NCBI RefSeq assembly: GCF_000719865.1
Contig: NZ_JOID01000011.1
Span: forward strand, 124,001-188,000
Length of the DNA stretch: 64,000 bases
Direction of reading: 5' to 3'
DNA from: Streptomyces albus subsp. albus
GTDB taxonomy: Bacteria; Actinomycetota; Actinomycetes; Streptomycetales; Streptomycetaceae
The notes beneath the pieces were generated by a model. The model saw nothing but the letters and a program-made list of their open reading frames with translations, was not told the origin of the DNA and searched no databases. The position numbers were made by a program, and so were the translations under genes. Positions 47,741 through 59,266 of this stretch are shown here, one piece after another. Position 1 is the first letter of the stretch. Every line of letters begins with the position of its first letter.

Positions 47741-47867
47741 TCGATCACGTCGAGCACGCGGACTGCCGTCGCCCCCACGGACCGGACACGCCGCGATGTC
47801 GCGTCATCTCCCACTTCCCCCACTTCCCCCACGTCCCCCCACTCAGCGCACGAGGAGACCCCCCTTC

Positions 47868-49082
47868 ATGGCTACTCACCCGCGTTCCGGCACGCGCCGC
47901 CTCACCGTCGCCATCACCGCCGCCGCGGCGGTCGTGGGCACCACCCTCCTGGCCCTCCCGGCCGGTGCGGCCCCCGCCGAGGGCAAGATCTACGGCGCGG
48001 ACGCCGAGAACGCCGTCAGCGGCAGCTACGTCGTCCTGCTCAAGGACGGCGCCGCCGCCAAGACCCTGAAGGCGACCGGCAAGAAGGACCTCGCCAAGAC
48101 GTACGGCGGCAAGCTCGACCACAACTACTCGGCGCTGGAGGGCTTCTCCGCCACCGGTCTCACCCGGACCGAGGCCAAGCGCCTCGCGGCCGACCCGGCC
48201 GTCGACAAGGTCGTCCAGGACCAGAAGTTCACCATCACCGGCACCCAGAACAACCCGCCGTCCTGGGGCCTGGACCGGATCGACCAGACCGCGACCGCCG
48301 GCGACGGCGCGTACACCTACCCGGACAGCGCGGGCCAGGGCGTCACCGCGTACGTCATCGACACCGGTGTCCGCGTCACCCACCAGGACTTCGAGGGCCG
48401 CGCCAGCCTCGGCTACGACGCCATCGACGGTGACAACTCGGCCGACGACGGCAACGGTCACGGCACCCACGTGGCCGGCACCATCGCCGGCGCCTCGCAC
48501 GGTGTCGCCAAGAAGGCGAAGATCGTCGCCGTCCGCGTGCTCGACGACAACGGCTCCGGCACCACCGCGGGCGTCGTCGCCGGCATCGACTGGGTCGCCA
48601 AGAACGCCTCGGGTCCCTCCGTGGCCAACATGAGCCTCGGCGGCGGCGCCGACGCGGCCCTGGACGCGGCCGTGCGCACCGCGATCTCCTCGGGCGTCAC
48701 CTTCGCCGTCGCGGCGGGCAACGAGTCGAGGAACGCCTCGACCGGTTCCCCGGCCCGCGTCACGGAGGCCATCACCGTCGCCTCCAGCACCAGCGGTGAC
48801 CAGCAGTCCTCCTTCTCCAACTTCGGCAGCGTGGTGGATCTCTACGCGCCGGGCTCCAGCATCACCTCGACCTGGAACACCGGCGACAGCGCCACCAACA
48901 CCATCTCCGGTACGTCCATGGCCACCCCGCACGTCGCGGGCGCCGCGGCCGTCTACCTGAGCGGCCACACCACCGCCAGCCCGGCGCAGGTCGCCTCGGC
49001 CCTGACCGGCGGCGCCACCTCGGGTGCCATCAAGAACGCGACCGGTGGCACCCCGAACAAGCTGCTCAAGATCGTCGAGTAG
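47868..49082 (+). CDS. secreted subtilisin-like serine protease (S8 family), copy 1
   Basis: This 404-residue preproprotease has a Sec or Tat-like signal (MATHPRSGTRRLTVAITAAA, cleavage near AGAAPA). An I9-type inhibitor propeptide (GSYVVLLKDGAAAKTLKATG, about 50-122) follows, then the S8 domain. The triad is Asp165 (YVIDTGVRV), His198 (GNGHGTHVAG) and Ser350 (SGTSMATPHVAG), with oxyanion Asn285 (AAGNES), so it should be active. It is of the proteinase-K/aqualysin type. The ATG at 47868 follows CGAGGAGA. A close paralogue lies 1.5 kb downstream; both share upstream and terminator sequences. Confidence 0.95.
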   Translation: MATHPRSGTRRLTVAITAAAAVVGTTLLALPAGAAPAEGKIYGADAENAVSGSYVVLLKDGAAAKTLKATGKKDLAKTYGGKLDHNYSALEGFSATGLTRTEAKRLAADPAVDKVVQDQKFTITGTQNNPPSWGLDRIDQTATAGDGAYTYPDSAGQGVTAYVIDTGVRVTHQDFEGRASLGYDAIDGDNSADDGNGHGTHVAGTIAGASHGVAKKAKIVAVRVLDDNGSGTTAGVVAGIDWVAKNASGPSVANMSLGGGADAALDAAVRTAISSGVTFAVAAGNESRNASTGSPARVTEAITVASSTSGDQQSSFSNFGSVVDLYAPGSSITSTWNTGDSATNTISGTSMATPHVAGAAAVYLSGHTTASPAQVASALTGGATSGAIKNATGGTPNKLLKIVE

Positions 49083-50592: not shown

Positions 50593-51813
50593 ATGGCAAC
50601 TCGTTCGCGTTCCGCTCTGCGCCGCCTCACCATCGCGATATCCGCCGCCGCGGCCGTCGTGGGCACCGGCCTCGCGGCCGTCCCCGCCGGTGCCGCCCCC
50701 GCCCCGGCCGAGGGCAAGATCTACGGCGCCGGCGCCAAGACCGCCATCGACGGCAGCTACGTAGTCCTCCTGAAGGACGGTGCCGCCGCCAAGACCCTGA
50801 AGGCCACCGGCAAGAAGGAGCTGGCCAAGACCTACGGCGGCAAGCTCGACCACAACTACACCGCCCTGGACGGCTTCTCCGCCACCGGCCTCAGCGAGAC
50901 CGAGGCGAGACGCCTCGCGGCCGACCCGGCCGTCGACAAGGTGGTGCAGAACAAGACCTTCCGCATCACCGGCTCCCAGGCCAACCCGCCGTCCTGGGGA
51001 CTGGACCGGATCGACCAGACTTCCCGTTCGCGGGACGGCGTCTACAACTATCCGGACAGCGCCGGGGAGGGCGTGACCGTCTACGTCATCGATACCGGTG
51101 TCCGCGTCACCCACCAGGACTTCGGCGGCCGCGCCAGCCTCGGCTACGACGCCATCGACGGCGACAACTCCGCCACCGACGGCCACGGGCACGGCACCCA
51201 TGTGGCGGGCACCGTCGCCGGTGCGGCGCACGGTGTCGCCAAGAAGGCGAAGATCGTCGCCGTCCGCGTGCTCGACAACAACGGCTCCGGCACCACCGCC
51301 GGTGTCGTCGCAGGCATCGACTGGGTCCAGCGGAACGCCTCCGGCCCGTCCGTGGCGAACATGAGCCTCGGCGGCGGTGCCGACGCGGCCCTGGACGCGG
51401 CCGTGCGCTCCGCGATCGCCTCGGGCGTCACCTTCGCCGTCGCCGCGGGCAACTCGGCGGCCAACGCCGCCAATTACTCCCCGGCGCGGGTCCAGGAGGC
51501 GATCACCGTCGCCGCCAGCACCAGCAGCGACTCGGAGCCGTACTACTCCAACTACGGCAGTGTGGTGGACATCTACGCGCCCGGTTCCTCCATCACCTCG
51601 GCCTGGCGGAGCAGCGACACCTCCACCAACACCATCTCCGGTACGTCCATGGCCAGCCCGCACGTCGCCGGTGCCGCCGCCGTCTACCTGGGCCGCCACA
51701 CCGGCGCCACCCCGGCCCAGGTCGCCAGTGCCCTGACCGGCGGTGCCACCGCCGGAGCGATCACCAACGCGACCGGTTCCACCCCGAACCGGCTGCTGAA
51801 GGTCGTCGAGTAG
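50593..51813 (+). CDS. secreted subtilisin-like serine protease (S8 family), copy 2
   Basis: This 406-residue preproprotease is closely similar to copy 1 along its whole length. It has a signal peptide (MATRSRSALRRLTIAISAAA), an I9 propeptide (GSYVVLLKDGAAAKTLKATG is identical), and an S8 domain with Asp (YVIDTGVRV), His (GHGHGTHVAG) and Ser (SGTSMASPHVAG). The main differences are in surface loops: SRSRDGVYNYPDSAGEG, AANAANYSPARVQE and SDSEPYYSNYG against SGDQQSSFSNFG. These may alter specificity or stability. AGGAGA precedes the ATG. It is followed by a terminator like that of copy 1. Confidence 0.95.
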   Translation: MATRSRSALRRLTIAISAAAAVVGTGLAAVPAGAAPAPAEGKIYGAGAKTAIDGSYVVLLKDGAAAKTLKATGKKELAKTYGGKLDHNYTALDGFSATGLSETEARRLAADPAVDKVVQNKTFRITGSQANPPSWGLDRIDQTSRSRDGVYNYPDSAGEGVTVYVIDTGVRVTHQDFGGRASLGYDAIDGDNSATDGHGHGTHVAGTVAGAAHGVAKKAKIVAVRVLDNNGSGTTAGVVAGIDWVQRNASGPSVANMSLGGGADAALDAAVRSAIASGVTFAVAAGNSAANAANYSPARVQEAITVAASTSSDSEPYYSNYGSVVDIYAPGSSITSAWRSSDTSTNTISGTSMASPHVAGAAAVYLGRHTGATPAQVASALTGGATAGAITNATGSTPNRLLKVVE

Positions 51814-52010: not shown

Positions 52011-52109
52011 GTTGACAGCTCAGATCGTCCTGGCCGCCAATGTGCGGCGAACCGCTCCCGACTGTCAACTCAAGGTTGACATTCACCGACTGTCAACCTA
52101 CGGTTGCCT
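52011..52109. promoter_or_regulatory. GTTGACA/TGTCAAC operator cluster upstream of the HTH-Clp_N gene
   Basis: TGTCAACTCAAGGTTGACA (52063-52081) is a perfect inverted repeat with seven-base arms and a five-base centre. A second 19-mer at 52091-52109 has the same left arm and a partial right arm (GTTGCCT) and ends one base before the ATG. A further single GTTGACA lies at 52011-52017. Centres of the two palindromes are 28 bases apart, nearly three helical turns. The adjacent gene encodes an HTH protein, so autoregulation is the simple reading. The GTTGACA arms also resemble -35 boxes. Confidence 0.72.
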
Positions 52110-52110
52110 C

Positions 52111-52848
52111 ATGACGGAACCCGTGCGCATGACGAACCCGGTCCGGCTCGACGACCTCATCGACGCGATCAAGAAGACCCACTCCGATGTGCTGGAACAG
52201 CTCACCGACGCGGTCGTCGCCGGAGACCACCTCGGAGACGTGGCCGACCACCTGATCGGCCACTTCGTGGACCAGGCGCGCCGCTCGGGCGCCTCCTGGA
52301 CGGACATCGGCCGCAGCATGGGCGTGACACGGCAGGCCGCACAGAAGCGCTTCGTCCCGAAGGGGACGGGGGAGTCCCAGGATCTCGACCCGAGCCAGGG
52401 CTTCAGCCGCTTCACCCCGCGCGCCAAGAACGTGGTGATGGCCTCCCAGAACGAGGCCCGCGCGGCCGGCAACGACACCATCGCCCCCGCCCATCTCGTC
52501 CTGGGCCTGCTGGCGGAGCCCGAAGGGATCGGCGCGCTGGCGATCAGTGACCAGGGCGTAGGGCTGGACGCCGTACGGCGGGATGCGACGGAGGCCCTCC
52601 CGCCGGCCGCCGGACAGGTCCCCGAGCTGATCCCGTACGACGCGGAAGCGCGCAAAGCCCTCGAACTGACCTACCGCCAGGCGCTCCGCCTCGGCCACAA
52701 CTACATCGGCACCGAGCACATCCTGCTCGCCCTGCTGGAGTCCGAGGACGGCACGGGCCCGCTCACCGGACTGGGGATCGACAAGGCGGCCGCGGAGACA
52801 TGGATCGCCGAGAAGATCGCCGCCCTGACGGCCCGTTCGACGGACTGA
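52111..52848 (+). CDS. HTH protein with two Clp_N-type repeats (probable autoregulator)
   Basis: This 245-residue protein contains a helix-turn-helix at about residues 60-80 (GASWTDIGRSMGVTRQAAQK). A C-terminal ClpA/B/C N-domain with its two helical repeats follows: FSRFTPRAKNVVMASQNEAR with IAPAHLVLGLLAEPEG, then YDAEARKALELTYRQALRLG with YIGTEHILLALLESED. There is no AAA+ ATPase domain. Clp_N domains bind substrates or adaptors, so this may be a regulator sensing protein damage. The ATG at 52111 directly follows paired palindromes that it may bind. It is monocistronic. Confidence 0.86.
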   Translation: MTEPVRMTNPVRLDDLIDAIKKTHSDVLEQLTDAVVAGDHLGDVADHLIGHFVDQARRSGASWTDIGRSMGVTRQAAQKRFVPKGTGESQDLDPSQGFSRFTPRAKNVVMASQNEARAAGNDTIAPAHLVLGLLAEPEGIGALAISDQGVGLDAVRRDATEALPPAAGQVPELIPYDAEARKALELTYRQALRLGHNYIGTEHILLALLESEDGTGPLTGLGIDKAAAETWIAEKIAALTARSTD

Positions 52849-53168
52849 CCGGGAGCGGGAGCCGCCCGCTGGAGCAGGCGGGAAGTCCCGGCGGGCGGTG
52901 CCACTCCCGGCCGCACCCGGCCGAGCGCACTCGTCAACGAGCTGAAGCCGCACCTCGACGCGACCGTCCGTGAACGGGGCATGGCTCCAAAGGTGCCGAG
53001 CAGGAGTCAAGTTGACGGGTCCGCCTGCGTCTTCTTGCCGTTCCGGCGCCTGCCGGGAGAGAGTGGACGGCCGGAGGGCGGCCGCCCCATGACGGACTCG
53101 CTCCGGCGTCGGCACAGCGGCCTTCCGCCGTCCCGTCACAAGCAGGCCGTACGAGGAGGCCCAACGAG
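52849..53168. other. 320-bp stretch with a possible gene remnant
   Basis: A frame around 52925-53000 reads ALVNELKPHLDATVRERG, which looks protein-like, but there is no start or domain context, so it may be the remnant of a lost gene. Near 52870-52910, GC-rich inverted sequences (CCGCCCGC...GCGGGCGG) could form a terminator for the HTH-Clp_N gene. An SD-like CGAG precedes the next ATG. Confidence 0.35.
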
Positions 53169-58687: not shown

Positions 58688-59266
58688 GTGGGAGCGGGTG
58701 CGGAACAGCCCGCAGCCGTCACCCCGATGTCTGCCGCGATACGGTCCGGTGGGCGGGCCGCGGCGGTGACCGGCGGGCCCACCACCACCGGCCGGGGCCC
58801 GTGGCTGATCGCAGGGGTGGTTCAACGGCGAAGGGCGGGGCTTGTGGACCGGAGTGAGGACGAGATCCTGACCGGAGAGATCGCGGCACTGGGCACGGCC
58901 GTCGGAGCCAGTGGCCGGTTGACCGGGCGTGTGGCCAAGCGGCTGAAGAAGAACGTCCACGAGATCGACCTGGTCATCCCCCTGCCCTTCGACGACGCCG
59001 TGAAGCGTGTCGCCGATGTCCTCGGAGCAGCCGGGCCGGCCGTTGAGCCCGCACGCGTCGAGCCCGGCGGGGACCGGTGGACGATCCGGGTCGTCGCCGG
59101 CGCCGGCGTCGGCGGGATGAATCCCGTCGTGGTCACCGCCCTGGTGACACGGGGCGGTGAGGGCGGTTCGGCGGTCAGACTCCGTGCGGCGGCCAAGGAA
59201 GGCCTGATCAAGCAACGGGCGGGCGAGAAGACCGCCGTCCGCCTCGCGGCGTCGCTGAGCGGGTAG
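58688..59266 (+). CDS. hypothetical protein
   Basis: This frame of up to 192 residues is not assigned to a family. Its C-terminal two-thirds looks protein-like: DRSEDEILTGEIAALGTAVG, KKNVHEIDLVIPLPFDDAVK, VADVLGAAGPAVEPARVEPG and VVTALVTRGGEGGSAVRLRA, with an alpha/beta pattern. The N-terminus is uncertain; GTG 58688, ATG 58727 and GTG 58842 are possible, none with a strong SD. It lies between the DUF397 genes and the convergent chelatase gene, whose stop is 37 bases away. Confidence 0.55.
   Translation: MGAGAEQPAAVTPMSAAIRSGGRAAAVTGGPTTTGRGPWLIAGVVQRRRAGLVDRSEDEILTGEIAALGTAVGASGRLTGRVAKRLKKNVHEIDLVIPLPFDDAVKRVADVLGAAGPAVEPARVEPGGDRWTIRVVAGAGVGGMNPVVVTALVTRGGEGGSAVRLRAAAKEGLIKQRAGEKTAVRLAASLSG

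Follow-up and report, generated by a model that had tools for sequence, protein, structure and literature searches.

The window analysed here is a stretch of 64,000 nucleotides from Streptomyces albus subsp. albus. An open reading frame on its forward strand, at 52111-52848, encodes a ClpC2-type protein of 245 amino acids, identified from the reading frame, Pfam and PDB similarity. The protein has an N-terminal helix-turn-helix (HTH) and dimerization domain, two Clp_N repeats and no ATPase; the first-pass annotation had described the HTH, the repeats and the missing ATPase. Pfam placed Clp_N (PF02861) on two stretches of the protein (E = 7.9e-24) and gave neither an ATPase/AAA+ match nor any other family up to an E value of 1. 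The HTH was not reported by Pfam, and is backed by likeness to the Rv2667 and RelI chains. The genes flanking clpC2 match a subtilase on one side and a PNPOx-family protein on the other. Two subtilase genes (S8 with an I9 propeptide), at 47796-49082 and 50593-51813, lie upstream of clpC2; they are 81% identical over 406 amino acids and are likely a local duplication. Between clpC2 and the PNPOx-family gene, at 53007-53017, the window reads GTCAAGTTGAC, half-sites with a one-base spacer.

Domains and predicted promoter of the window gene

The top four PDB matches of the protein are the ClpC2 chains 9p2p, 8b9o, 8ad9 and 8ada, of which 8b9o was deposited merely as a "Clp amino terminal domain protein". 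8ada (Rv2667) aligns with window residues 1-72 with no shift, while the other ClpC2 chains among the matches start only at residue 88 or 98. The structure model, at modest confidence, has helices at residues 13-23, 27-41, 43-58, 63-70 and 74-81. Using the alignment and the model helices, residues 1-81 (52111-52353, forward strand) were assigned to the dimerization and HTH domain. The predicted HTH is made of helices 63-70 and 74-81, with 10-residue pLDDT means of 72 and 63. Residues 74-81, RQAAQKRF (52330-52353, forward strand), are the proposed recognition helix, from the model, conservation and covariation at equivalent positions. The two Clp_N repeats, residues 98-232 (52402-52806, forward strand), form the putative ligand-binding domain according to Pfam, PDB similarity and the ClpC2:CymA structure of a homologue. 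Window residues Q96, F98, Y176 and E185 were placed opposite the Rv2667 cyclomarin contacts Q94, F96, F172 and E181, a correspondence that is our own numbering match. Among 110 sequences F98 and E185 are kept in all and Q96 in 82, and position 176 is Y in 58 and F in 52.

Two candidate operators lie directly upstream of the gene, as first annotated. O1 (52063-52081) is a perfect TGTCAAC-N5-GTTGACA. O2 (52091-52109) is TGTCAAC-N5-GTTGCCT, has two mismatches, and is separated by one base from the ATG at 52111; the two centres are 28 bases apart. On the forward strand the right arm of O1 supplies a candidate -35 element, TTGACA (52076-52081), and the centre of O2 a candidate -10 element of the form TAnnnT, TACGGT (52099-52104). 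The spacer between them is 17 bp. Only 6 bases separate the -10 element from the ATG, and a leaderless clpC2 transcript is therefore predicted in this organism. A stricter sigma-70 scan gave no promoter in the clpC2 upstream region.

Operator matches with up to three mismatches number three in the window vs 0.63 expected, a count reached in 2/100 shuffles; the third match, at 59131, carries three mismatches. The heptamer GTTGACA occurs five times vs 2.17 expected, and three of the five are within O1 and O2. The pair geometry that recurs among homologues is stronger evidence than these counts within the window.

Conservation of the operator pair in fused and split systems

Fused homologues of the window protein were collected as the best 80 of at least 573 confirmed stretches plus 29 from further genomes, which gave 109 homologues, or 110 with the window. 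Since the 80 are the best of at least 573, the sample is biased toward close homologues. Sites were scored as YGTCAAC-N5-GTTGACR with at least 11/14 positions matched in each. Two sites were found upstream of 109/109 other close homologues, and the pair is thus present in 110/110 with the window included; a search of homologous upstream DNA for this palindrome was the check that the first-pass annotation had proposed. As a control, 1926 random windows from the same loci were scanned; 39 had at least one site and none had a pair. There was no extra perfect site in the 554,367 bases of the fused loci. The promoter pattern is kept along with the operators. TTGAC is present at -35 in 110/110 loci and TAnnnT at -10 in 108/110, the two elements are separated by 17 or 18 bp in 110/110, and the start codon follows the -10 element by 6 (96 loci) or 7 (14 loci) bases. 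Recognition-helix residues 75-81 are invariant (110/110).

A lone GTTGACA at 52011 had been noted at first as a further copy. A half-site lies within 60 bases before the upstream operator in 1/109 homologues, and in none at the same place. When measured from query residue 1 the count is 3/109, but where a locus has a longer N-terminus its operators may have been counted too. This half-site is not conserved in the 109 homologues and was dropped as a third operator.

Another 18 fused homologues, most of them diverged (best-segment identity 32-63%), were scanned as well, and 14/18 had an N5 pair. Of the exceptions, L376 has an N6 pair and L377 one N5 site; in L379 two N5 sites are spaced by 23; and L363 has no scanned site, its frame being broken in that assembly. 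In L363 (G010:C2) clpC2 is split over two open frames, with the N-terminal part apart from the Clp_N part, by either a sequencing error or decay.

The same genome also has a split relative. At locus L116 (G000:C26) a 74-amino-acid HTH-only gene is preceded by two N4 operators, and a separate gene for a 206-amino-acid Clp_N protein begins just a few bases after it. The HTH of the 74-residue protein matched Pfam only below the cut-off. The model of an HTH-only relative has a mean pLDDT of 93.8, with helices at 53-60 and 64-71. Foldseek gave no significant fold match with this model, and VIA-align put Fis chains at the top with modest Z. A split relative was found in 51/60 genomes of the same genus (best E <1e-12). 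The best 30 loci for the L116 protein, its own included, have two N4 sites in 30/30. Among 83 HTH-only matches from its own genome and 100 relatives, the 30 included, 72 have at least two sites, and 148/152 site calls are N4. A short-protein search was dropped as a source of HTH-only relatives; its at least 120 matches were 78-92% identical and too close. A larger set of 202 distinct HTH-only genes came from 224 loci taken out of the listed matches, including a class-wide draw of 246 genomes. These were scanned with YGTCA...TGACR fixed and the gap left free, and two sites 24-32 apart were required. An operator pair was present at 156/202 genes and was not found at 46/202. All pairs (157/157) were N4 and none was N5. 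A downstream Clp_N reading frame was found for 175/202 genes. Longer proteins, of about 200 amino acids, also carry a related HTH: L117 (G000:C1:62413), which has GGTCA-N8-TGACC upstream, and L205-L210, where YGTCAAC sites were found in 0/6.

It appears to be new that the HTH is often a gene of its own, that a Clp_N gene usually comes after it, and that its half-sites are the same but with an N4 spacer. No published report of the split operon or of a residue/base code was located in a search that covered mainly listings and abstract openings, with most subscription journals outside its coverage.

The distance between operators varies in both sets. It is 28 (62) or 29 (48) bases in the 110 fused loci, window included, and 27 (79), 28 (69), 29 (7) or 25 (1) in the 156 paired HTH-only loci. 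The promoter spacer in the latter is 17 or 18 bp in 148/156, and TAnnnT is present in 129/156. Because the spacer stays at 17 or 18 bp in all of the fused N5 loci and most of the N4 loci, operator spacing follows the promoter and not a fixed distance between bound dimers. The 28-base spacing had been taken as a sign of cooperative binding; we set that argument aside, as the shift adjusts to keep the promoter spacer and the spacer explains the spacing. Taylor 2023 (PMC10030653) did observe simultaneous occupation of both ClpC2 operator sites, which by itself does not imply cooperativity.

No downstream Clp_N reading frame was detected at 13/156 paired HTH-only loci. Ten were inspected, the others being L123, L200 (at a contig end) and L299. 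A beta-lactamase-family hydrolase gene comes next in 4/10 (L355, L356, L357, L361) and an ABC exporter gene in 2/10 (L359, L360). In another 2/10 (L352, L362) the next genes encode a MoxR-type ATPase and then a VWA protein, and for 2/10 (L353, L358) the next gene was left without a call. At L352 (G048:C23) and L362 (G307:C11) the N4-operator HTH-only gene sits after an MbtH-like reading frame, a label that is our own reading, and in L362 an NRPS module comes before it. L354, the same locus as L211, has one N4 site only and an HTH-only gene directly before a beta-lactamase-family serine hydrolase.

The genome was also searched for solitary sites. O1 is the only N5 site with zero or one mismatch to TGTCAAC-N5-GTTGACA. 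Nine sites have two mismatches, O2 among them, and the reversed-pattern control gave none. The other eight are at C1:418330, C8:169387, C15:120667, C23:64470, C27:25960, C29:1500, C31:4852 and C40:14389 of the genome (G000). Three N4 sites have zero or one mismatch: the split operon accounts for two, and the third is at G000:C26:39413. Two mismatches are found at a further 22 N4 sites; the reversed control gave a total of 14. The single one-mismatch N4 site at L381 (G000:C26:39413-39430), with the split operon about 5 kb away, lies shortly before a reading frame that we read as NUDIX-like; it may be a chance occurrence. A wide ClpC2 regulon is not supported, though other target genes may exist.

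Which domain reads the DNA

Taylor 2023 (PMC10030653) describes a mycobacterial ClpC2 that represses its own promoter. Cyclomarin A binds its Clp_N part and hinders DNA binding. The first-pass annotation had proposed a self-repressor with a Clp substrate-binding domain as its sensor. That core matches the mycobacterial protein and the conserved operators; its lone half-site and its cooperativity argument fell away, as described above.

The reading we favor, with a probability of about 0.8, is that the window gene is a ClpC2 orthologue, that the HTH of its dimer reads two operators over its own leaderless promoter, and that a ligand on Clp_N releases it. The dimer would be held together by the N-terminal domain, and the HTH (recognition helix 74-81) would enter the GTCAAC half-sites of both predicted operators. 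The operators overlie the predicted -35 and -10 elements of clpC2's own leaderless promoter, where the bound protein would block RNA polymerase. The C-terminal Clp_N pair would be a copy of the substrate- and drug-binding domain of ClpC. Its ligand would be a peptide directed at ClpC1, which in mycobacteria is cyclomarin A, or perhaps unfolded protein, and upon binding it the dimer would leave the DNA. ClpC2 would then be made in bulk and soak up the ligand. Both the identity of the ligand in this organism and the route by which its binding would reach the HTH are inferred.

Taylor 2023 (PMC10030653) assigned DNA binding to a helix of Clp_N that carries two arginines. The crystals in that work comprise fragments 4-72 and 94-252 and include a ClpC2:CymA structure. 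With 8ada aligned unshifted over residues 1-72 and the recognition helix predicted at 74-81, this proposed helix is absent from both crystals.

The same half-site accompanies the HTH-only proteins. Residue/base tables were made from the 156 paired loci, the 46 pairless HTH-only genes being omitted. For base 6 of the half-site, column 69 of the HTH-only protein ranks first and column 66 second (0.712 and 0.705 bits; next 0.473; 156 loci). Residue 69 also ranks first for base 7 (0.531; next 0.316; column scan, 156 loci). Both residues sit in the HTH-only recognition helix, RQx66VHx69K. An Ala at residue 66 is paired with A in 132/134 loci, and a Ser or Thr there with G in 22/22. At residue 69, Lys goes with C in 113/126 and T in 13/126, Arg with C in 9/9, Glu with G in 4/4, and Ala, Thr or Asn with T in 8/9, while Gln is found with 2 C, 4 G and 2 T. 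The columns of the Clp_N partners, scored at 143 loci, served as a control. The best of them reached 0.511 vs 0.821 for the HTH at base 6, and 0.560 vs 0.641 at base 7, where the margin is small. The covariation was also placed on a tree of 97/156 loci, left after removal of near-identical rows. Each trait changes 4 times and only one pair falls on well-supported branches; with so few independent changes the covariation is not phylogenetically independent and can be given no significance. The diverged fused proteins L364-L380, compared by eye, all combine Ala at the first helix position with an A as base 6. The six whose second residue is Lys show C; where it is Gln, the base is C, G or T.

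The shared half-site, the covariation, the L364-L380 pattern, fused homologues that lack the published arginines, and HTH-only loci without a Clp_N gene together argue that the N-terminal HTH, instead of the Clp_N domain, is likely the DNA reader. We infer that the base contacts are made by the HTH rather than by the Clp_N helix. The conserved operator and promoter architecture, the N4/N5 rule and the residue-base covariation are what comparison at the sequence level shows.

Against an HTH-only reading, the Clp_N domain does matter in at least one species, given the R185A/R189A mutant, whose DNA binding in vitro is weaker (PMC10030653). The 46/202 HTH-only genes without a pair, the lack of DNA-binding evidence for the HTH relative RelI (PMC13284704), the phylogenetic dependence of the covariation, the small margin at base 7, the lack of a significant Foldseek match and the empty sigma-70 scan also weigh against the favored explanation. 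Because the arginine mutant binds DNA less well, both domains may touch DNA. The half-sites would be read by the HTH, with a further, non-specific contact from the Clp_N arginines that gives way when the ligand binds. This would refine the favored explanation; it reconciles the mutant data with the HTH covariation and accounts for DNA release upon ligand binding to Clp_N. Homologues with Asp at both arginine positions would need another contact or another release route, and we hold this version as tentative, though plausible enough to keep in view.

That the Clp_N helix itself reads the DNA through the two conserved arginines (window R189 and R193), with the N-terminal domain merely dimerizing, is improbable. 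The arginines are well kept in close homologues (R189 in 110/110, R193 in 109/110). The in vitro result speaks for this reading, as does expression, which rises 2.0-fold in the equivalent M. smegmatis double mutant; in the same source (PMC10030653) derepression is greater, 4.6-fold, in the dimer mutant R57A, which counts for the favored reading. However, three fused proteins (L369, L370, L372) with Asp at both published positions keep N5 operator pairs, an assignment made from gap-free BLAST alignments for L369 and L370 and from a multiple alignment for L372. The split Clp_N partners have Arg at the first position in 128/175 but at the second in only 11/175, and operators are also present at HTH-only genes where no Clp_N gene was found nearby. 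It is very unlikely that another regulator binds the palindromes and clpC2 is just its target, for although the eight additional two-mismatch sites (reversed control 0) make other targets possible, mycobacterial ClpC2 binds the same type of sequence (PMC10030653), the genome has no other N5 site of zero or one mismatch, and operator variants track variants of the adjacent HTH.

With the HTH as reader, ClpC2 probably represents one variant of a portable switch cassette in actinobacteria, in which a small HTH dimer is combined with two operators set in a leaderless -35/-10 promoter. The HTH, not Clp_N, would read through residues 66 (Ala for A, Ser or Thr for G) and 69 (Lys or Arg for C, Glu for G, Ala, Thr or Asn for T, Gln relaxed). 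The N5 spacing of fused genes vs the N4 spacing of split genes may prevent cross-talk within one cell. The same cassette would stand before the hydrolase, exporter and MoxR/VWA genes. The DNA-binding site would have been sought in Clp_N because the crystals miss the recognition helix.

ClpC2 affects mycobacterial survival under cyclomarin-type drugs, and the released-repressor model hinges on which domain touches DNA. If it is the HTH, the route from drug to DNA must be redrawn. The split relative, with its sensor and its DNA reader on different proteins, is a simpler system. What this analysis adds is the proposal that the HTH and not Clp_N reads the DNA, together with the N4/N5 rule and the idea of a portable cassette.

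Comparison with known systems

The window gene's kind is already in print and the outline of its regulation is known (Taylor 2023). In that paper (PMC10030653), the mycobacterial operator is CGTCAAC-n5-GTTGACG, 1-2 nt before the reading frame, and many species have another copy upstream of it. The operators overlap -35 and -10, and the transcript is probably leaderless. Dimerization is through the N-terminal domain, ClpC2 expression rises under heat stress, and a figure legend covers seven actinobacteria. In a 2026 report (PMC12913811), M. tuberculosis ClpC2 was raised by desoxycyclomarin alone of three peptides. Hoi et al. 2023, as cited in a review (PMC10864484), deals with ClpC2/ClpC3.

The window gene is like mycobacterial ClpC2 (Rv2667 and its M. 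smegmatis homologue) in domain order, operator type and conserved R57 and, by sequence pattern, in the overlap with candidate -35 and -10 elements and a predicted leaderless transcript. It differs in the outer base T, in the imperfect O2 and in having Tyr176 for Phe172 (our numbering). RelI (Rv2664), the antitoxin of RelS-RelI, has a related HTH region; unlike the window protein it has no Clp_N and is paired with a toxin, and PMC13284704 reports neither a sign of DNA binding nor upstream inverted repeats for it. A RelI-type layout is absent at the window gene, where a 245-amino-acid Clp_N protein is flanked by matches to a subtilase and a PNPOx-family protein. ClpC and ClpB unfoldases share the Clp_N domain, but the window protein has no AAA+ match. 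The split operon L116 is like the window gene in its related HTH, its paired operators on the -35/-10 pattern and its Clp_N partner. In contrast to the window gene it is made of two genes and has N4 operators, and HTH residues 46-82 are 46% identical.
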